From a virus, in the IMG/VR virus record IMGVR_UViG_3300046007_000402, positions 1 through 20,260 of that record: DNA of 20,260 nucleotides. One strand, given 5' to 3'. The notes beneath the pieces were generated by a model. It was not told the DNA's origin and searched no databases. It saw only the letters and a list, made by a program, of their open reading frames with translations. Below are positions 3,941 through 12,932 of this stretch, in pieces (within the stretch, counting starts at the first letter, position 1; each line of letters begins with the position of its first letter). Position numbers and translations under genes: made by a program.

Positions 3941-4237
3941 TTATTCATCTAAAAGTTTAATAAACTCAGGATGTCCTGCTTTCCTGAACTTGATAGCCAG
4001 CGTCGTGTGGTGCGACTTAATGGCCTCTTTCATGTAAAACACCAAAACCTGACGGATTTGATTTCTAAACGCCTCTGCCTGATCCCGAATGGCAGGGTGC
4101 GTCTGCGAACCTACAGAAATAATCTTGTCTAGCGCCCGTTCTGCAACTTCCTCTGGGGTAAACCCTCGGCCTTGCGTTGTAAGAACCTTGACGTTTGCGC
4201 CACCCAAAAGGAAGGCTACTTCGCTCATAGTGCTCAT
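3941..4237 (-). CDS. Conserved phage hypothetical protein, helical
   Basis: This 98-aa protein is mostly helical and has the segment VLTTQGRGFTPEEVAERALD (about residues 18-37), then KIISVGSQTHPAIRDQAEAF, and ends HPEFIKLLDE. I recall this pattern as a conserved phage family without assigned function. Its ATG overlaps the stop of the adaptor gene by 4 bases (ATGA), so it is probably translated with the adaptor. A second ATG three codons on is equally possible. Its place between an adaptor and the fibre module hints at a connector, tail-completion or chaperone role. The sequence does not show which. Confidence 0.7.
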   Translation of the reverse strand: MSTMSEVAFLLGGANVKVLTTQGRGFTPEEVAERALDKIISVGSQTHPAIRDQAEAFRNQIRQVLVFYMKEAIKSHHTTLAIKFRKAGHPEFIKLLDE

Positions 4238-4911
4238 CTAACTGGATACCTCGCTTGTTCAGTTCTGTACATATCTTGACGGTCTTTGCCTTCACCAAGT
4301 TGTTTCAACGTGGCAAGTGCTTCGTTGTAACGAGCAATGTAATTGTCGTTAACATCTTTTTCGCCTTTCATAAAGGCATATGCTTCAAGTAATGAACCAT
4401 AAAGAAGAGCAGAATCACAGTTAGTTCCAAGCCAAGTTGTACCAGAGGTAACAATCGAGGGTGGATAGGCGTAGTAATGCAACTCCATACCATAGTCTGC
4501 GTCTGGAGTTGGCCCTAAAATAAACGTATTCTCATCAAAAATAGCGTAATGAGTGGGGGCACCTATGGCAGTAGGACTTGGAAAAGACTCACGAATGTAT
4601 TCCACGTCCTTGTTCAACAGGTATTCTTGAGACCCATTGGCATCAATCCGGGCTAAGGAAAACGTAGCAAGCCAATCTGTAGGTGTAGTCAAGAACCGAT
4701 TATTAGCCGTACAGTTACCTGTCACATTCTCCCTTGAGACCGGGAGTTGAACGCTGTTATAGATTCGCTGTTCAGCCTGACGAATAAACGTATCAATCTG
4801 ATCTTTGGTAAGAAAAGATGTCGTTGTAGCCGTCGTTGTGTTGACTACCGTATCCGGAAAGTCATTTTCACAATACGCCTGAATGGTCTGGAACAGCGTT
4901 GAGTAATTCAC
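4234..4911 (-). CDS. Head-tail adaptor / connector-like protein
   Basis: This 225-aa protein begins MNYSTLFQTIQAYCENDFPD, followed by FIRQAEQRIYNSVQLPVSRE (about residues 43-62). Later come LTTPTDWLATFSL, GAPTHYAIFDEN, LGPTPDADYGMELHYY, and a C-terminal helical region ending DRQDMYRTEQARYP. This arrangement matches short-tailed-phage adaptor proteins that bind below the portal (SU10-type adaptor; related to P22 gp4 and T7 gp11-like tail proteins), as I remember those families. Start is GTG at 4909-4911, preceded by GGGGTAAG. The gene begins 3 bases after the stop of a small basic gene and overlaps the next gene by ATGA. Adaptor identity is likely; the exact family is uncertain. Confidence 0.72.
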   Translation of the reverse strand: MNYSTLFQTIQAYCENDFPDTVVNTTTATTTSFLTKDQIDTFIRQAEQRIYNSVQLPVSRENVTGNCTANNRFLTTPTDWLATFSLARIDANGSQEYLLNKDVEYIRESFPSPTAIGAPTHYAIFDENTFILGPTPDADYGMELHYYAYPPSIVTSGTTWLGTNCDSALLYGSLLEAYAFMKGEKDVNDNYIARYNEALATLKQLGEGKDRQDMYRTEQARYPVR

Positions 4912-4914
4912 AAC

Positions 4915-5181
4915 TTACCCCATTTTTCCGCTAATTTTGCGGCCTTTAGTTGCAGCGCCATAACCACGCATTTCACCAACCCCATAAGGATTAATTGGTG
5001 CATAGTTTCCTTTGCTAACCCAGCCACTAGAAATATTCATCTTGTCCATTTGTTCTGCGCCAGTTTTATAAACTGAATAAGTTTGAACATTGGTTGTCTT
5101 GCCACTCATGGTGTGAGGCTCGGCATAAACTTCAGCACTACCAACTTCCTTTCCCATCATTTTTGCGCTGTATTTAGCCAT
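4915..5181 (-). CDS. Small conserved basic phage protein
   Basis: This 88-aa protein has a Lys-rich N-terminus (MAKYSAKMMGKEVG), a central Thr/Tyr-rich part (VQTYSVYKTG), and a C-terminus of MRGYGAATKGRKISGKMG. The Gly/Lys/Arg ending RGxGAATKG is a pattern I recall from small phage proteins near connector genes. The function is unknown. Its ATG shares bases with the stop of the previous gene (TAATG), so it is translationally coupled to the 60-aa gene upstream. No metal, nucleotide or membrane motifs are seen. It may be a minor virion or assembly protein, by position only. Confidence 0.65.
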   Translation of the reverse strand: MAKYSAKMMGKEVGSAEVYAEPHTMSGKTTNVQTYSVYKTGAEQMDKMNISSGWVSKGNYAPINPYGVGEMRGYGAATKGRKISGKMG

Positions 5182-5363
5182 TATCGGCCCCTTCCAGAGT
5201 TTTTGTATGTGAAGGATGATACCTTTTGATTGGCTACCTTGGCTAGGCCACGACCAAGTTGCTTCATTTGGAGATTGGTTTTACCGCCCTTGGCAAACTT
5301 AGTTAATGGCTTGCCGGGGTGCATTGACTTCTCATGTTTGTGAACTGCCTTCTTTGCGTCCAT
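5181..5363 (-). CDS. Small conserved basic phage protein (KHEKSMHPGKP type)
   Basis: This 60-aa protein begins MDAKKAVHKHEKSMHPGKPL and continues KFAKGGKTNLQMKQLGRGLA. It is very basic (Lys/Arg/His) and probably helical after the GG turn. I recall this HKHEKxMHPGKPxTK pattern from small phage genes of unknown function. The AKGGKT segment resembles the K-x-GG-x-V/T turn found in the small-protein cluster at 6.9-8.9 kb. The stop overlaps the next start (TAATG). It lies between the zinc-ribbon gene and the 88-aa gene. Nucleic-acid or capsid-interior contact is possible for such a basic peptide, but this is inference. Confidence 0.65.
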   Translation of the reverse strand: MDAKKAVHKHEKSMHPGKPLTKFAKGGKTNLQMKQLGRGLAKVANQKVSSFTYKNSGRGR

Positions 5364-5371
5364 AATTACTC

Positions 5372-5794
5372 CTATGTAATTGAAATTGTTACTGTTCCTA
5401 ATTGACCGCCAATTAATAAATTATTGGGAGTTAATCCATAAGTATTTCCTAAACCCACAGGGTTCCAACCCCATTGAATCTGCCTACTACCACCAGACGG
5501 AGTCCCGTCACTACTAACAGAAGGAGTGTTGGTAGCCAATAACTGCAATCCCGTCAAACCACCCTGCAAATAACTGTTGTCCTTCCTTGGGTTCCTTAAA
5601 GCCTGTGGGTCATCTACTGGATACATACCCAACTGCAACTGGGGCTGATCCGGTTCCCAACAAGAAGGGCAAACTAATATGTTCACATTCTTGGTCTTAA
5701 TGACCAAGCCCTTCAACTGCTTTAACTTAAACTGGAACCCACAGCGATCACACATGGCAATCGCATTTTTTCCAGACGCAAATCTATTTCCCAT
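5372..5794 (-). CDS. Zinc-ribbon phage protein
   Basis: The 140-aa product carries a four-cysteine zinc-ribbon at its N-terminus: C15-x2-C18 (MCDRCGFQF) and C42-x2-C45 (VCPSCWEP). The middle has PVDDPQALRNPR, which I recall as a conserved follow-up of this phage zinc-ribbon family. The C-terminal half is low-complexity Gly/Asn/Thr-rich with short strands (GGQLGTVTISIT) and looks structural. Start ATG shares TAATG with the stop of the adaptor gene upstream. A zinc site in a structural operon suggests a virion connector component or an assembly factor; the ligand is inferred from spacing. The residues are intact and no frameshift is seen. Confidence 0.75.
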   Translation of the reverse strand: MGNRFASGKNAIAMCDRCGFQFKLKQLKGLVIKTKNVNILVCPSCWEPDQPQLQLGMYPVDDPQALRNPRKDNSYLQGGLTGLQLLATNTPSVSSDGTPSGGSRQIQWGWNPVGLGNTYGLTPNNLLIGGQLGTVTISIT

Positions 5795-6543
5795 TACTCA
5801 ATAAACATTCTTCTAGGAACAAAACGAACAGCCGCTTTATCCCTGTCTTCTTCAGAAGCGAATCTCCACTGTTCGTCATATTGTTCTTTTAACACAGCAA
5901 CCCTATCTGGGGCCACCTTAATTGCCAAGTAATACGCCAACCCGGCAATCATGCAATTTAGGAACCTAAAGGGAATATCCTGTGTCGTAATGCCATTCCC
6001 GGCATCTTGAATCCTTCGCATACGCCAGTACACGAACGTGTAGTAAGGGGAAGAAATCGATCCCTGATCTGGGGCAGGCCATACATAAATCTTGGGATGA
6101 TCCACCCCAGTAGTAGTATTTGTGCCGTTTGGTCTGCCGCCGGGAGGATAGGTAGCGCCCGACTGACGGTCTACCCAAACCTGAATAGGACGGCCTGTTG
6201 CCAACTTGTTTGGGATCGTAGCATAGGTAGAAACACTAATACGGGTGATTGTTAGGTCTGCTTGACTTGTACCGGTTCCTGTACGAGTTACGTGCTCAAG
6301 AAGATCAATTGTATCTATCGGGAGTTCGTAAGACACTTGATTGGCTATAAGCGGTATCTCCCCGTTCTCGATAGTCCAAAGGTTGACCCCACGGTTAGAC
6401 CACTCCACGGTGAGCAAGTTTAAACTGCGTCTTGCCGTCCGAAGGTCGTAACCAGTTCTGAGTTCTTTCCCACAGCGTTCAAACGCCTCCTCAACTATAT
6501 TGTTAAGGTCTAGATTAAAGGAACTCGTGCCTGCCGTAGTCAT
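5794..6543 (-). CDS. Tail connector / adaptor-like protein (P22 gp4 or T7 gp11 type)
   Basis: The 249-aa product begins with a helical segment, NLDLNNIVEEAFERCGKELR (about residues 10-29), then DLRTARRSLNLLTVEWSNRG. Beta segments with VSYELPIDTIDLLEH follow. A KIYVWPAPDQG segment and YYTFVYWRMRRIQDAG come later, and helices with YYLAIKVAPDRVAVLKEQYD end it. The order of N-terminal helix bundle, beta barrel and C-terminal helix is that of phage head-tail adaptor and tail-tubular proteins. The ATG overlaps the preceding stop as ATGA. With 4234-4911 it makes two adaptor-type genes, as in podoviruses that have both an adaptor and a nozzle-like protein. The assignment rests on pattern recall, so the precise role is uncertain. 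Confidence 0.72.
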   Translation of the reverse strand: MTTAGTSSFNLDLNNIVEEAFERCGKELRTGYDLRTARRSLNLLTVEWSNRGVNLWTIENGEIPLIANQVSYELPIDTIDLLEHVTRTGTGTSQADLTITRISVSTYATIPNKLATGRPIQVWVDRQSGATYPPGGRPNGTNTTTGVDHPKIYVWPAPDQGSISSPYYTFVYWRMRRIQDAGNGITTQDIPFRFLNCMIAGLAYYLAIKVAPDRVAVLKEQYDEQWRFASEEDRDKAAVRFVPRRMFIE

Positions 6544-6803
6544 TTTACTTTCCTATGCGGAGCAACTTTTTTAGCCACGCTTTTAGGCTGTGGAACAAAC
6601 TGTTTGCCTGCGGCTTTACCGGCTCTCTTGGCTTTCGTGGTCGAGGCGTACTCTTGCGGGGAGAGCGCTTTGATGGCGCTGCTTGGGAGGTATCTTTCCC
6701 CTGTAGCCTGCGATCCTTGCGTAGAAGGTTTGCCACTTTTAGTTCTCCACTTTTGTTGAGTCCACGCCTTCAGACTTTGCTGCGGCTTTTTCAAGTTCGA
6801 CAT
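6540..6803 (-). CDS. Small basic conserved phage protein (KWRTKSGKPS type)
   Basis: This 87-aa very basic protein has LKAWTQQKWRTKSGKPSTQG (residues 11-30), ATGERYLPSSAIKALSPQEY, and a Lys-rich tail (KRAGKAAGKQFVP…KKVAPHRKVK). I recall WxxQKWRTKSGKPS…TGERYLP as a conserved phage small-protein family of unknown function. The N-terminal 65 bases overlap the end of the gene at 6739-6915 in another frame, and the 3' end overlaps the adaptor gene by ATGA. The start has GAGAG about 6 bases upstream. The shadow frame at 6545-6736 lies inside this gene and is not supported. The basic tail could contact DNA; this is inference. Confidence 0.72.
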   Translation of the reverse strand: MSNLKKPQQSLKAWTQQKWRTKSGKPSTQGSQATGERYLPSSAIKALSPQEYASTTKAKRAGKAAGKQFVPQPKSVAKKVAPHRKVK

Positions 6804-6915
6804 TCCGTTCTCTCTGTCTAATCTTTCTAAAGTCTTCGGCGGTGCTAATCAACCATTCAAAAACGTTTCCATCTTGATTGGAATCATAGACAGGGAATTT
6901 AATCCTTGTACCCAC
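6739..6915 (-). CDS. Small acidic/helical protein, overlapping both neighbours
   Basis: This 58-aa frame was read by hand. It starts at GTG (6913-6915), 17 bases inside the end of the preceding gene, and stops at TAA (6739-6741), 65 bases inside the next gene. The product begins MGTRIKFPVYDSNQDGNVFE, continues EWLISTAEDFRKIRQRERN, and ends EGVDSTKVEN. Unlike its Lys-rich neighbours it is mixed-charge and helical, with a clean mix of hydrophobic and charged residues that looks like a real protein. Without it, 6804-6898 would be the only gap in this gapless cluster. No family is recognised. The ribosome site is weak, so it may be translated by coupling. Confidence 0.65.
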   Translation of the reverse strand: MGTRIKFPVYDSNQDGNVFEWLISTAEDFRKIRQRERNVELEKAAAKSEGVDSTKVEN

Positions 6916-7183
6916 CGCCCGCTTTCTTGTACTGAATAGCCATCATTTGAGCCTTACGGGCGCTCCATTGACCCGGAGCACCCCCCTTGTTTCCAGCCTT
7001 AATACGTTCAAATATAGACTTCCGTAGTCCCGGTTTGGTGTAATTACCGGCCTCATTCACTCTAGATACCTTGCCGCCTTCAGCGTACATAGTGACCTGA
7101 TTCGGATCATCCTTACGGGTGATCGTCTTGGCCTTAGGCATCTTAGATGGGTTTATGGCCCCCATTCCACGACTAGGACGCAT
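6899..7183 (-). CDS. Small basic phage protein with a KPGxRxxxFxxIKAGxKGGxPGQWSARKAQ domain
   Basis: The 94-aa product has an N-terminal basic stretch (NPSKMPKAKTITRK), the EGGKVSRV turn, and a C-terminal domain at about residues 48-91. That domain reads TKPGLRKSIFERIKAG, then KGGAPGQWSARKAQMMAIQY and KKAGGGY. I recall this as a compact conserved domain of unknown function found in phages and some large viruses (DUF5872, to be confirmed). The ATG follows the previous stop directly (TAA then ATG). The domain has conserved Trp, Arg and Lys but no acid cluster, so it looks like a nucleic-acid or protein binding module rather than an enzyme. Role in virion unknown. Confidence 0.72.
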   Translation of the reverse strand: MRPSRGMGAINPSKMPKAKTITRKDDPNQVTMYAEGGKVSRVNEAGNYTKPGLRKSIFERIKAGNKGGAPGQWSARKAQMMAIQYKKAGGGYKD

Positions 7184-7597
7184 TTAGCAGGTCTTTCCAC
7201 CTGAACGCATTTTTTTGACTGCGCCGCCACTTTTCATGACGACCCGCTTGGTGTCAGTCCTACCTTTTTTAGCAATACCATCAGCAGACTTGTGCCCAGC
7301 GGCTAATCCACCACCAGCCATTTTCTTAACCTTGCCGCCATACTTCATACCGGCTTCAGCCATCTCATGCTTGATCATGGACTTGGGAGCGCCTTTTTTC
7401 TTCATAAAGGACACTTCCTTTTTCATCATTGCCTTTGGCTCTTTAGTAGCGCCGCCTTCTTTAAACGACCTTCTGGATGATCCACCTCTAAGTGGGTTCC
7501 CTCTAGTAGAAGTAATGGTTGAAGTTGGAGCCGGAGCCGGGGCAGGTGCTACTTTGGGTGACGTTCTGGGACTTGGTCTGAACATTGAGGGTTTCAT
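7184..7597 (-). CDS. Small basic repeat-type phage protein with degenerate ADG motif
   Basis: The 137-aa product is Lys/Gly/Met-rich. Its parts are a Pro/Ala stretch (VAPAPAPAPTST), then EVSFMKKKGAPKSMIKHEMA (a pattern I recall from phage small proteins). Next come KYGGKVKKMAGGG, an internal HKSADGIAKKGRTDTKR, and MKSGGAVKKMRSGGKTC at the end. The internal HKSADGIAKKGRT is a degenerate form of the C-terminal tag of the four genes upstream, and GGKV and GGAV repeat the turn found before those tags. It has a single Cys, which is the last residue. A GGAAGGAAG stretch precedes the ATG. Function is unknown; relation to the tag family is visible in the sequence. Confidence 0.72.
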   Translation of the reverse strand: MKPSMFRPSPRTSPKVAPAPAPAPTSTITSTRGNPLRGGSSRRSFKEGGATKEPKAMMKKEVSFMKKKGAPKSMIKHEMAEAGMKYGGKVKKMAGGGLAAGHKSADGIAKKGRTDTKRVVMKSGGAVKKMRSGGKTC

Positions 7598-7598
7598 T

Positions 7599-7775
7599 TT
7601 AGGACTTCCTTCCTTTAGGTTTAACTTTTACAGCACGTTTGGATGAAACAGAACCACCTTTTTTCTTGGTGAACTCTTTACCTACGGACGTTGGTACGCC
7701 CACCTTCTTTGCAAACTTTGGATTATGAGCCACCGCTTGCATAAACCTTTCTTGCTTGGCTGATACGCTAGGCAC
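7599..7775 (-). CDS. Small conserved basic phage protein (KQERFMQAVAHNPKFA type)
   Basis: This 58-aa frame was found by reading the gap after 7768. It starts at GTG (7773-7775) with GGGG about 8 bases upstream, and overlaps the previous stop by 8 bases (GTGCCTAG). The product is MPSVSAKQERFMQAVAHNPK, then FAKKVGVPTSVGKEF, a KKKGGSV turn, and a basic tail ending KPKGRKS. I recall the N-terminal KQxRFMQAVAHNPKFAKKVG pattern from phage and bacterial small proteins of unknown role. The KGGSV turn recurs in neighbouring genes. The frame ends 1 base before the next ATG, which supports it as a real gene. Confidence 0.75.
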   Translation of the reverse strand: MPSVSAKQERFMQAVAHNPKFAKKVGVPTSVGKEFTKKKGGSVSSKRAVKVKPKGRKS

Positions 7776-8010
7776 GAGTCTTACCCCGGATTGCTATGCC
7801 ATCAGCCCGGGCAGAAGCAGACTTTACTGCACCGCCCTTTTTCATACCGGCAATCGCACTAAAACCAACAGGCTCGCTAGAACCGGTGGCGGTTGAGGTG
7901 CCGTAATTGATGGTATTAGCCATACCGTCTACTTCACCCATAAGTTCGTTTGCGGATTCCGCAATACCGGATAGGCCACCACCTTGAAAACGTTTAACTT
8001 TCTTTTTCAT
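7768..8010 (-). CDS. Tag-family small protein, Ile type, short tail
   Basis: The 80-aa product begins with a Lys-rich stretch (MKKKVKRFQGGG), then a helical region (IAESANELMGEVDGMANTIN) and Gly/Ser/Thr linker. It ends MKKGGAVKSASARADGIAIR and GKTRA. The ending matches the shared tag but lacks the final G(K/R)MV, stopping at RGKTRA, where the stop overlaps the next gene's start. The ATG overlaps the previous stop as ATGA. It belongs to the Ile subtype (RADGIAxRGKT). No enzymatic motif. The variable N-terminal parts of family members suggest that the tag is the functional common element. Function unknown. Confidence 0.75.
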   Translation of the reverse strand: MKKKVKRFQGGGLSGIAESANELMGEVDGMANTINYGTSTATGSSEPVGFSAIAGMKKGGAVKSASARADGIAIRGKTRA

Positions 8011-8195
8011 ACCATTTTCCCTTTAGTCTTGCCTCGAATAGCGCAACCATCAGCGGATTTAACATAGCCACCAGACCTCTTGCCCTCTGGTTTCTCTTCT
8101 TTAGGTTCTTCTTTTGGCTTCTCCTCTTTTGGAGGACGTTGTAATTTAGAAGCCGCAATCGTGCCTAATATCCCAAGAATCTGACTAGCGCTCAC
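8007..8195 (-). CDS. Tag-family small protein, Cys type, with short hydrophobic N-terminus
   Basis: This frame is called from GTG at 8193-8195, 1 base after the preceding stop and with AGGA 9 bases upstream. A longer version from 8279 would overlap that gene by 83 bases and is not preferred. The 62-aa product has a short hydrophobic helix (SASQILGILGTIAASKLQ), a Lys/Glu/Pro-rich linker made of about three PKEE(K/P) units, and the Cys-type tag (KRSGGYVKSADGCAIRGKTK, then GKMV). The hydrophobic segment is about 14 residues, short for a membrane span. The stop overlaps the next start (ATGA). Function unknown; layout is N-terminal anchor, charged spacer, tag. Confidence 0.7.
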   Translation of the reverse strand: MSASQILGILGTIAASKLQRPPKEEKPKEEPKEEKPEGKRSGGYVKSADGCAIRGKTKGKMV

Positions 8196-8196
8196 G

Positions 8197-8607
8197 CTAC
8201 ACCATCCTTCCACGGGTTTTGCCACGAAGAGCAATCCCATCAGCACGTTTAGAAGCAGACGATACTTTGACTTTTCCACCTTTTTTCATCCCACGAGACT
8301 CACGACGTAGTTCTGCCTCTGCGGCAGATTTCTGTCTTTGGTCATAGTTATAACCCGGACGATCATATTTCTTTTGTAAATACTCTTCTTTCATCTTTCC
8401 ACGGGGAGTACCTAAAAGCATATTGATGTCATCAACGGTAGTATCAACACCCCTTCTTAAATCCTCTACGCCTTGACCTAAAAAATCACCAACTCGGCTT
8501 CCAGCCAGTGCTGCACCACGCATAGCACCACGGATTCCACGAGTCATAAAATCCTCATCGGGATCTACCTTAGACTCCTCGATCATCTTTGTGCGCTCTG
8601 ATTTCAT
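8197..8607 (-). CDS. Tag-family small protein, Ile type
   Basis: The 136-aa product has an acidic N-terminus (ESKVDPDEDFMTRGIRG), a Gly/Ala helical part (AMRGAALAGSRVGDFLGQGV), a long charged helical region (EEYLQKKYDRPGYNYDQRQK), and the tag. The tag reads MKKGGKVKVSSASKRADGIA followed by LRGKTRGRMV. It is the longest of the four tagged proteins. It starts 3 bases after the preceding stop; no clear ribosome site, so reinitiation is likely. The ending differs from its neighbours at many synonymous bases, which suggests selection on the peptide rather than recent duplication. No known domain is recognised. Confidence 0.75.
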   Translation of the reverse strand: MKSERTKMIEESKVDPDEDFMTRGIRGAMRGAALAGSRVGDFLGQGVEDLRRGVDTTVDDINMLLGTPRGKMKEEYLQKKYDRPGYNYDQRQKSAAEAELRRESRGMKKGGKVKVSSASKRADGIALRGKTRGRMV

Positions 8608-8610
8608 GAT

Positions 8611-8904
8611 TTACACCATCTTTCCACGAGTTTTTCCACGCTGGGCACAGCCATCAGCAGAGCGAACATAACCACCAGATTTCATACCTTTAGCACGAGC
8701 AGACTTTTTTTCTTCACGCATTAAATCAATATCTGCTTCTTGTAAGGCTTTCAAAGTATTTTCATATGTGTCTCTTTTGCCTTGATATGATGGTGCATAA
8801 GATTGCAGACGCAAATAATCGCTAGTTATTTCACCTTTAGCCGCTTTTTGTGCCGCCTCCTCGTGGCGATCCATGAGCGAATCACGTTGAGTGCTTTTCC
8901 CCAT
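8611..8904 (-). CDS. Tag-family small protein, Cys type
   Basis: The 97-aa product is a charged helical protein (LMDRHEEAAQKAAKGEITSD; LKALQEADIDLMREEKKSAR) ending MKSGGYVRSADGCAQRGKTR plus GKMV. The start is taken as ATG at 8902-8904, 6 bases after AGGGG; a GTG one codon upstream is too close to that site. It is the first tagged gene in the run and follows the membrane/coiled-coil gene by a few bases. The tag is nearly identical to that of 8007-8195 (Cys type). A YQGKRDTYENTLK segment in the middle is unlike its relatives. Function unknown. Confidence 0.75.
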   Translation of the reverse strand: MGKSTQRDSLMDRHEEAAQKAAKGEITSDYLRLQSYAPSYQGKRDTYENTLKALQEADIDLMREEKKSARAKGMKSGGYVRSADGCAQRGKTRGKMV

Positions 8905-8907
8905 CAC

Positions 8908-9141
8908 TTACCCCTTTTGCATAAGGAGATCAATTTTTGCTTCAAGTTTGTTAAAGCGTTGGTCAATGTGTTCAACAAACTTGTCCATTTCTGCTTGAGT
9001 GACGTTATCACGGGCCACCTCTTCTCTGGTTCGGTTAATTAAAATGTTTAAACGCTGTAACTCAGATATCTTTTCATGCCCGATATAGGCTAAGACACCT
9101 ATCAGCGCTGTCAACAACGTATTCCAAAGCATAATTTCCAT
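8908..9141 (-). CDS. Single-pass membrane protein with coiled coil
   Basis: The 77-aa product has one hydrophobic segment near the N-terminus (MLWNTLLTALIGVLAYIG, about residues 4-21), followed by a long amphipathic helix (KISELQRLNILINRTREEVA … HIDQRFNKLEAKIDLLM) with coiled-coil heptads. The start is set at ATG 9139-9141, where TAATG joins it to the previous stop and GGTGG lies 8 bases upstream; other ATG and GTG codons up to 9153 are possible. Size and layout fit small phage holin- or spanin-like proteins or a membrane-anchored accessory factor. No cysteine lipobox is seen. A lysis function cannot be shown because no endolysin is in the window. A GTTTAAAC site lies in RLNI codons. Confidence 0.72.
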   Translation of the reverse strand: MEIMLWNTLLTALIGVLAYIGHEKISELQRLNILINRTREEVARDNVTQAEMDKFVEHIDQRFNKLEAKIDLLMQKG

Positions 9142-9422
9142 TAGCATTTCCACCTTTTCCGAGCCTGCCTTAAACGGCTGTTCGGATCTTTTGCCGCCTT
9201 AGGAAACTTCTTCATTTGACCCAAAGAACGGGCGCAGAATGACTTGCGTCGTGTTGCCCTTTCTCCGGTTGGTTTATCTTCTGTAACCGCAGTCTTGAGT
9301 TTTGACCCCGGGTTGGCACGGCGATATGCCTTGACACCCTTTTCGGTCATCCCTGCTCCCTGCTTGGTCGGGCGAAAATTGCCTGACTTAACAGAGGTTT
9401 TGATCCCCATATCCTTAGCCAT
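9141..9422 (-). CDS. Small basic phage protein ending in KxWKC
   Basis: The 93-aa product is very basic and has TEKGVKAYRRANPGSKLKTA (about residues 26-45), TGERATRRKSFCARSLGQMK, and a C-terminus of DPNSRLRQARKRWKC. I recall this arrangement (GxxxYRRxNPGSxLKxxVT … RRKSFCAR … DPNSRxxxAxxxWKC) from small proteins of cyanophages and other aquatic phages (DUF6321, to be confirmed). The ATG at 9420-9422 abuts the glycosyltransferase stop, which it overlaps by one base. Its final residue is Cys. Two Cys (SFCAR and WKC) could form a metal or disulfide pair; this is inference. Function unknown; probably a minor virion or DNA-contact protein. Confidence 0.74.
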   Translation of the reverse strand: MAKDMGIKTSVKSGNFRPTKQGAGMTEKGVKAYRRANPGSKLKTAVTEDKPTGERATRRKSFCARSLGQMKKFPKAAKDPNSRLRQARKRWKC

Positions 9423-10159
9423 TATGCCGCCTCTTTCTTGGCATCGATAGGTTTTAATAGGGGGTACAGGAAGTCCTCGCCAAAGGAACCCTCATACTCC
9501 ATAACACCCATATGCCCTAATTTAATAGTTGGATCTACCCATGCCGTGAACCCATGCTCATGGGCACGATCACAGAATACATAGTCTTCGCCTACATACC
9601 CATCGGGTGTGCTCTTAAAATCAAAGAACGACTGAAGCATTTTGCCGGTGTTTTGATCCATGTATTTCCACTCAGGATGTGCATCCCGCATGGTCTCAAA
9701 TACACTGCGCTGAATCATAATAAATCCGGTTCCTACCCGCTTGACCTTAACCAGCCCCATCCTGTCCATAATGATGTTGTTGTCTTCGTCTTGATCTAGG
9801 GAGGAGAAATACACCTTTTCTTTCTTACGGGCGACCCCAACCCCGGCAACAATTGGTTTGGTTTGACTCCAAGCCAGCATACGGAAAACATCATCTGCAT
9901 TGAACGTCATATCAGAATCAATCATCAAAAGATGTTCTGCTTGTGATTCTAGAAATTCATTAGCAATGATATTTCTAACCCTCGACACAACCGAGCATCC
10001 TGAGACGTTTGAGATCTGTATTGACACGCCGTGTTGCTGTGCTTTAACGCAAAACTCAGCCAAGGCAATTGCCATCTTGACAGAAACCTTAAAGTCATAG
10101 GCAGGAAGCCCAATGAAGAGTTTCTTGCCAGCGAGGTTATAAGAGGCTTCGTTTTGCAT
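9422..10159 (-). CDS. GT-A fold glycosyltransferase (family 2-like)
   Basis: The 245-aa product has a GT-A nucleotide-sugar fold. It opens with KLFIGLPAYDFKVSVKMAIA (residues 13-32), carries a basic SRVRNIIANEFL segment at 59-70, and has the metal-binding DxD as D81-S82-D83 in MIDSDMTF. Further on are GTGFIMIQRSVF (143-154), GED at 190-192 with the following helix, and a late H216 (IKLGHMG) that often completes the metal site. These place it among inverting GT-A enzymes. No membrane segment or signal is seen. Length fits a single catalytic domain. It lies among structural genes, so it probably modifies virion or cell-surface polysaccharide or protein; the substrate is unknown. GGATAA from the previous gene's end serves as ribosome site. 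Confidence 0.8.
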   Translation of the reverse strand: MQNEASYNLAGKKLFIGLPAYDFKVSVKMAIALAEFCVKAQQHGVSIQISNVSGCSVVSRVRNIIANEFLESQAEHLLMIDSDMTFNADDVFRMLAWSQTKPIVAGVGVARKKEKVYFSSLDQDEDNNIIMDRMGLVKVKRVGTGFIMIQRSVFETMRDAHPEWKYMDQNTGKMLQSFFDFKSTPDGYVGEDYVFCDRAHEHGFTAWVDPTIKLGHMGVMEYEGSFGEDFLYPLLKPIDAKKEAA

Positions 10160-12023: not shown

Positions 12024-12932
12024 TTACGCCCCGGGAGAACCGAAGATACCCAGCGGATCAGAGAATCCGAATGAGTAACGCTCACGAGCCTTGTAACGGA
12101 CGTTACCGGTGTCGAAGTCGCCGTCCATCGATGTAGACATCGGCATACGAACGAAGTGCTTCAGACCGTTAGGAACGTCTGTCGTCAAGAACCATGCGTT
12201 GTTATCCGTCAAGAAGTGGTTAACAGCGTAGCCCTCAGGGATAGAACCATTGTTCTTCAGAGCGTTGATGTCGTTGTCAGCCGTTGCGACACGAAGTTCG
12301 GTCTCAAGCAGGCGGGTTGCAACGAACATCAGGCTGGGAGGAACAATCAACTTACGTGGCTTTGCAGCAATCAGCAGACCACGCTCGTCCGTCCATGCGG
12401 CGATCTGAATGACAGCCGCCTCAAGGGAGGTCTCATTCAGGTCAGCAGGGGTGGAAGGCTCGTTGCTGTTGTAGCCACCAGACACGAGAGGATGCAGAGT
12501 TGAGAACAATTCAACCCCATCACCGCCCGGATAGGCAGAGTTGAAGCCATTGTTCAGAACGTTTGCAGCCTTAACTTGCTTGGTGTAAGCCATAGCACGG
12601 GCCAAAGCCTTGGTGTACCGAGCGCTGAGTGAGTCATAGAGGTTGTCCTCAATTGCCTCTTCAGTCAGGGAAAACCCTAATGCAATGGTTTCGTGCTGAT
12701 AGCGAGCAGTCCATGCCTCTTGAGCGTTGTCATAAGCGATGGCAGAGCCTTCGTTTTTGACCGGCGCAGCGGAGAAGCCAGACAGTTTTGTTTCCTCTTC
12801 AAACGAACGCTCAGAGGTCTCGGTGTCGAAAATCTCTTTATGCTCTTCGCCGTATTTGTTGTACTCAAGACCAAATAGAGCGTTAAGTCCGGGGAGAAGT
12901 TCTTTTAGTAGTTGGGCACGAGAGATAGCCAT
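12024..12932 (-). CDS. Major capsid protein (Mu gpT-like, HK97 fold)
   Basis: The 302-aa product forms the capsid shell. It matches Mu gpT-type major head subunits in layout as I recall them. The N-terminus is LLKELLPGLNALFGLEYNKY (9-28), then TSERSFEEETKLSGFSAAPV (38-57), EAWTARYQHETIALGFSLTE with EEAIEDNLYDSL. Next come RYTKALARAMAYTKQVKAAN, STLHPLVSGG, DERGLLIAAKPRKLIVPPSL, and RVATADNDINALKN. The end is NVRYKARERYSFGFSDPLGI. AGGAAGG precedes the ATG by 9 bases. It follows a cement-like gene, scaffold, co-chaperonin and portal, the usual order. The sequence has no separate protease domain, and no N-terminal delta-like extension of 100 residues is seen. It closes with a strong terminator. 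Confidence 0.92.
   Translation of the reverse strand: MAISRAQLLKELLPGLNALFGLEYNKYGEEHKEIFDTETSERSFEEETKLSGFSAAPVKNEGSAIAYDNAQEAWTARYQHETIALGFSLTEEAIEDNLYDSLSARYTKALARAMAYTKQVKAANVLNNGFNSAYPGGDGVELFSTLHPLVSGGYNSNEPSTPADLNETSLEAAVIQIAAWTDERGLLIAAKPRKLIVPPSLMFVATRLLETELRVATADNDINALKNNGSIPEGYAVNHFLTDNNAWFLTTDVPNGLKHFVRMPMSTSMDGDFDTGNVRYKARERYSFGFSDPLGIFGSPGA

Follow-up and report, generated by a model that had tools for sequence, protein, structure and literature searches.

A conserved, mostly C-terminal peptide on diverse small proteins of one short-tailed phage lineage: a candidate docking motif

IMG/VR record IMGVR_UViG_3300046007_000402 is a viral DNA of 20,260 bases (this whole stretch is referred to as the window), with nearly all of its genes on the minus strand. 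Several adjacent small genes in the window encode proteins bearing one peptide of about 20-27 residues, GGxV..S(A)SxRADG[C/I]Ax[R/K]GKT[R/K]G[K/R]MV, which we refer to as the tag. We found that the tag is common but confined to one phage lineage, short-tailed phages common in water metagenomes, and that selection acts on it at the peptide level. It may be a motif through which the tagged proteins dock on a common phage partner, most likely to be incorporated into the virion, a proposal to which we give roughly an even chance.

RESULTS

Tagged genes in the window

A tag profile was built from 231 distinct tags. It detected genes 1 to 4 of the window with E values of 4e-9 to 1e-13 (Table 1) and matched none of 20,000 residue-shuffled open reading frames (ORFs) at E<=0.05. 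The sequence-only reading had described four consecutive genes with the same ending, the last one cut short; three of them carry full tags and the fourth carries a short form ending in RGKTRA, all supported by the profile. This ending is not merely a cut-off copy, as a short form, typically ADG[C/I]AIRGKT[R/K]A, recurs in 21 loci on various bodies (the body being the protein with its tag removed), with few exceptions at the residue before RGKT. The degenerate internal copy that had been pointed out in gene 5 scored below the profile threshold, yet the syntenic relative in contig L106 has it intact (HKQADGVAKKGKTKGKEVKM). Contig L106 contains relatives of genes 2, 3, 4 and 5 in the same order plus two additional tagged genes, which shows the tag array changing through the insertion of complete tagged genes. 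The listed ORF of gene 3 likely begins too early, because the longer ORF passes through the gene 2 tag in another reading frame; the GTG start given in Table 1 was deduced from where gene 2 ends and from the ribosome-binding site overlapping it.

The tag recurs between capsid and adaptor genes

A scan of IMG/VR with a degenerate DNA pattern of the tag core found at least 120 matching stretches, and among the pattern matches listed, 119 of 120 contigs carried core genes of the same lineage, the Pam1/SU10-adaptor type. The tag profile matched 641 ORFs in 400 loci, and 376 of these matches ended exactly at the C-terminus, placing the tag far beyond the window. The tag was present in 59 of the 76 loci fetched by the adaptor gene alone and in 35 of the 76 loci fetched by the capsid gene, many of which were short pieces. 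The idea that tagged genes lie beside structural genes was borne out: in loci with both anchors, 279 of the 304 tags were flanked by the major capsid gene on one side and the first neck-adaptor gene on the other, and all except one (303/304) were on the same strand as these anchors. Tagged genes formed tandem arrays of one to six, and the arrays varied between relatives.

A tblastn search with the tag peptide or gene 1 against 50,697 phage records gave no match. By profile scan of the fetched records, one isolate type with a clear tag was found, Planktothrix phage Pag-Yong1, whose one clear tagged protein (UMO75986.1, 308 residues) is encoded between the minor capsid and portal-adaptor genes and is identical in MinM2 and Pra-JY27. 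Bacterial and archaeal genomes, scanned for prophage copies, produced only five matches; three of them look like chance, and another is a binned phage contig (L124). In positions 1-250 of L126, a contig of a Patulibacter metagenome-assembled genome, a phage tag is fused to a bacterial membrane acyltransferase-like frame, which looks like a chimeric contig end. We found no description of the tag in the literature, and no public family database describes it.

Selection acts on the peptide

In 242 tags, fourfold sites were 38% identical, as compared with 98% at positions 1-2 of the same codons, and synonymous codon use at the invariant A, D, G, G, K and T was close to body proportions. The suggestion that many synonymous differences point to selection on the peptide therefore holds across these tags. 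In 111 pairs with related bodies, nonsynonymous divergence (dN) was lower in the tag (0.20) than in the body (0.37), with synonymous divergence (dS) near saturation in both. The variable tandem arrays would fit recent duplication or recombination that spread tag copies with no function of their own. That is highly improbable, as fourfold-site identity among tags of the same genome is only 45% and tag dN lies below body dN; such low within-genome identity argues that the tags are old copies kept by selection.

At the last codons, usage shifted from GGT/GGC to GGA/GGG for glycine, to CGG/AGG for arginine and to GTG/GTA for valine, which creates, ahead of the next start codon, a purine-rich Shine-Dalgarno stretch, and 230 of the 242 tags had a start codon with an open frame within ~18 bases. 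The terminal G[KR]MV is dual-purpose, forming the peptide end and the ribosome-binding site of the next gene, and the latter partly explains the conservation of GKMV. An extension of this idea, that the entire conserved stretch is a ribosome-binding or gene-junction element with an incidental peptide, has very little chance of being correct: the codon shift is confined to the last four codons, whereas the preceding 11 codons are nearly as free at synonymous sites as the bodies, with constant amino acids. The ribosome-site reading is thus refuted for the tag core and true for the final residues. Since the terminal G[KR]MV serves two ends, the peptide core is the part that matters for testing.

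Bodies in front of the tag

The bodies of 486 tagged proteins fell into 159 clusters at a phmmer threshold of 1e-4, 113 of them singletons and one, with 227 bodies, a chained group around the phrog_16759 module. Independent origins may number fewer than 159, which is an upper estimate: homology ceases to be detectable between bodies of low complexity that change fast. The N-terminal parts had been called unrelated; there is indeed no sequence relation between the bodies, but most are alike in kind, small, rich in lysine, alanine and glycine and almost free of cysteine (0.1%), and 77% are disordered by the charge-hydropathy rule. Searches of 102 carrier representatives with Pfam, PHROG and PADLOC detected no widely recurring family. 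The only clear family matches were DUF6321 and the phrog_16759/22033/25121 module, each in 1-2 of the 102 carriers, and neither is the tag. Tag-only and carrier profiles compared with the PDB gave nothing meaningful.

Bodies and tag are net basic (mean body charge, about +0.05 per residue), and many bodies are Lys/Gly/Ala-rich, as would be expected if the tag were a basic, RG-rich nucleic-acid-binding tail and the tagged proteins coated or condensed DNA with no protein docking. We consider this unlikely. The A-D-G, G and T residues are as invariant as the basic ones; K and R swap, and ADG and GKT hardly vary. A pure charge tail is disfavoured because it would not require invariant ADG and GKT.

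Position, cysteine and predicted structure of the tag

The tag had been taken as C-terminal, but it is not strictly so. In p58b-type proteins the motif is followed by tails of 8-20 residues, in phrog_16759-module proteins the core is followed by a tail ending in GGxxC, and in relatives of the window gene at 5181-5363 it lies 40-45 residues before the C-terminus. The protein end bears on another alternative, in which the partner of the tag is a host protein, such as a protease, a chaperonin or RNA polymerase, and the tagged proteins serve as late factors that modify the host or are short-lived. Small, fast-changing accessory proteins would suit such a role, and a basic C-terminus with a final hydrophobic residue is loosely reminiscent of one ClpX degron class. 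The longer tails, the internal positions and the RGKTRA ending, however, misfit a degron at a free end, the location of the tag is locked within the head-to-neck block, and hosts vary across the wider lineage; we judge host docking improbable too.

Cysteine occurred in the core (ADG-C-A) only in 172 of 324 full-length tags, at the last residue only in 61, at both places in 3 and at neither in 88. The two sites are almost mutually exclusive (Fisher P about 8e-21, a value inflated by related tags). Because of this kinship, last residues were shuffled within contigs; the three observed double-cysteine tags, a count that 2 of 5000 shuffles reached, compared with a shuffle mean of 10.0. Among 372 strictly tagged proteins, 213 had one cysteine and 114 had none, and the tag was usually the source of the only cysteine of the protein. 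A single reactive or metal-binding thiol in the tag is a reasonable inference.

AlphaFold predicted the body helices of gene 1 with pLDDT of up to 96, as compared with ~52 for the tag, which was predicted to be unstructured even with 79 aligned tags, as expected of a docking peptide. The core ADG[C/I]Ax[R/K]GKT fits the Walker A pattern GxxxxGK[ST] in 539 of 585 distinct profile matches, raising the idea of a phosphate-binding loop. We give it scant credence: H, R, F or L replaces the lysine in 38 of the 585, the look-alike tag described below departs from the pattern, a Walker B is absent, and the prediction gives the tag no secondary structure, not a P-loop fold. The replaceable lysine, the missing Walker B and the predicted lack of structure led us to reject the P-loop reading.

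A look-alike tag and neighbouring modules

A neighbouring gene of the window ends in a look-alike tag, of which 96 C-terminal examples were found in a sister set, one per locus (consensus, RGxGAATKGxKxxGxM). All of these loci fall within the same lineage, whether or not the first tag is nearby, and two related endings occur in HTVC023P. The two profiles aligned weakly, with 17 columns in register (hhalign E=0.004, probability 8.5%).

The window protein at 7599-7775 has relatives elsewhere that bear the tag. Its N-terminal module is common to phiKZ-like small proteins and to annotated virion structural proteins of 121Q-like jumbo phages, with up to 78% identity over 36 residues to the jumbo-phage proteins. 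The DUF6321 protein is untagged in the window; the domain has the tag appended at its end in L026, L044, L107, L120 and L124. DUF6321 and the phrog_16759 module resemble the tag in being short conserved pieces on small basic phage proteins of the same gene block, some relatives of which are tagged, but their sequences are distinct from it. DUF6321 also occurs in many cyanophages, in which the tag was not found by tblastn. The window DUF6321 protein aligns with the C-terminal end of much longer PHROG profiles, and DUF6321 itself may therefore be a transferable C-terminal module in aquatic phages.

Three window genes, 6899-7183, 7599-7775 and 6540-6803, co-occurred with the tag, the first in 108 of 117 tagged versus 2 of 17 untagged loci. 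This likely reflects detection bias, because the untagged loci are also more distant. Puniceispirillum phage HMO-2011 has clear relatives of the small basic proteins 6899-7183 and 6540-6803 and no tag in the stretch examined. Relatives of 6899-7183 also occur in several pelagiphages and roseophages.

Genomic setting

The gene order in the window is terminase, portal, GroES-like, probable scaffold and minor head, major capsid protein, small genes, two SU10-type adaptors and tail genes. By its related portal, capsid, GroES and adaptor genes, and by their order, the phage belongs to the Pam1/SU10-adaptor-type podoviruses. The named phages nearest by portal (~40-45% identity) are Pelagibacter HTVC023P/HTVC027P, Planktothrix Pag-Yong1, DSL-LC04 (a metagenome-assembled phage) and Roseobacter CRP-901, the records of which have a similar gene order. 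The GroES-like co-chaperonin gene (PF00166; 14861-15217), with the portal gene on one side and probable scaffold genes on the other, is a conserved feature of the lineage. A glycosyltransferase-like gene (9422-10159) in the small-gene block was detected in only about one-fifth of the tagged loci; its best match was phrog_1574, with weaker matches to glycosyltransferase PHROGs and a sub-cut-off match to Pfam Anp1.

Table 1. Coordinates of the tagged genes, tags and associated features in the window
Feature	Position	Strand	Evidence
Second SU10-type adaptor	4234..4911	-	PF24175 E=9e-26
Gene with look-alike tag MRGYGAATKGRKISGKMG (4918-4971)	4915..5181	-	Pattern scan
Small protein; this copy has no tag core, relatives in other phages have one	5181..5363	-	Relatives' sequences
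SU10-type neck adaptor, one flank of tag array	5794..6543	-	PF24175 E=1.2e-6
Gene 5, degenerate internal tag copy HKSADGIAKKGRT at 7256-7294	7184..7597	-	Relative in L106 intact
Small protein, N-terminal module MPSVSAKQERFMQAVAHNPKFAKKVG	7599..7775	-	phrog_16759, 22033, 25121; 121Q and Hallingskeid records
Tagged gene 4, 80 residues, short tag form	7768..8010	-	Tag profile E=1.6e-10; relative in L106 likewise ends RGKTRA
Short tag of gene 4, GGAVKSASARADGIAIRGKTRA	7771..7836	-	End overlaps GTG start of 7599-7775
Tagged gene 3, 62 residues from likely GTG start at 8195	about 8007..8195	-	Tag profile E=3.8e-9
Tag of gene 3, GGYVKSADGCAIRGKTKGKMV	8010..8072	-	Sequence
Tagged gene 2, 136 residues	8197..8607	-	Tag profile E=1.3e-13; syntenic relative in L106
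Tag of gene 2, GGKVKVSSASKRADGIALRGKTRGRMV	8200..8280	-	Sequence
Tagged gene 1, 97-98 residues, predicted helical body and flexible tag	8611..8907	-	ORF; tag profile E=3.8e-11; AlphaFold
Tag of gene 1, GGYVRSADGCAQRGKTRGKMV	8614..8676	-	Sequence
DUF6321 protein	9141..9422	-	PF19846 E=1.6e-14
Major capsid protein, other flank of tag array	12024..12932	-	PF25209, phrog_371

DISCUSSION

We propose that the tag is a short linear docking motif that would bring diverse late-made small proteins to one common phage partner during assembly, a reading favoured because a flexible peptide is joined to unrelated bodies and holds a fixed place among assembly genes. All copies would bind the same partner, probably a virion or prohead protein, and the tagged proteins would most likely become part of the virion, either inside the head or at the head-neck junction. 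Also in favour are the neighbouring tag-bearing small proteins, which have a module in common with annotated virion structural proteins. The bodies may differ through different or rapidly changing jobs, the single tag cysteine may help to anchor the protein through a disulfide bond or a contact with metal, and the look-alike tag, which sits on a neighbouring single-copy gene, may dock on the same surface or on a related one.

Several observations weigh against this proposal. The motif is not fixed at the C-terminus, about a quarter of the tags have no cysteine, and 17 of the 134 lineage loci holding both anchor genes have no tag match, so the tag is not essential to the lineage. Among the 102 carrier representatives there was no convincing match to an enzyme family, hence no obvious cargo. 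We found no virion proteome of any carrier in the literature. The sequence-only reading had seen a common address on different cargo as a targeting signal. The many body clusters, the capsid-adaptor location, the codons and the dN values favour the address; the image of "cargo" may not suit the bodies, because no carrier convincingly matches a known enzyme domain.

In phage T4, a short capsid targeting sequence (on IPI-III and Alt) is sufficient to direct almost any protein joined to it into the prohead (PMC7697877, PMC5694885). The present tag resembles it in logic only, as one short peptide on different proteins. The T4 sequence is N-terminal, about 10-20 residues long and removed by the prohead protease, whereas the tag is mostly C-terminal (the 376 profile matches given above), about 20-27 residues long, attached to far more bodies and has no known cleavage; no separate prohead protease was recognised among the scanned window proteins, although families may be missed. 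Encapsulin cargo-loading peptides are C-terminal and load unrelated proteins into an HK97-fold shell. They sit on folded enzymes, whereas the present carriers have no recognisable enzyme domain, and shell binding by the tag is putative. Phage SU10, which has a neck adaptor family in common with the present phage, packs five kinds of ejection proteins, and these are virion proteins (PMC9509320). The part of that account drawn on here describes no common tag on them (PMC9509320), and the tagged bodies showed no similarity to PHROG ejection-protein families. For the tagged proteins, entry into the virion and packaging in the capsid are plausible.

A more specific version, which we advance tentatively and consider doubtful, is a C-terminal virion address code, in which a flexible peptide, often with a single fixing cysteine, would load an open-ended set of fast-changing small proteins into the particles of this widespread aquatic lineage, and a related second tag would mark a single-copy partner for the same docking site. 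Two specific features lend themselves to easy testing: the rule of one cysteine in either of two places, and the second role of the last codons as a ribosome-binding site. If the address reading is true, the last 25 residues would be enough to list the accessory proteins encoded by a large group of uncultured phages, even though the bodies match no family. The tag would then also serve as a transferable C-terminal handle by which proteins could be loaded into phage particles.
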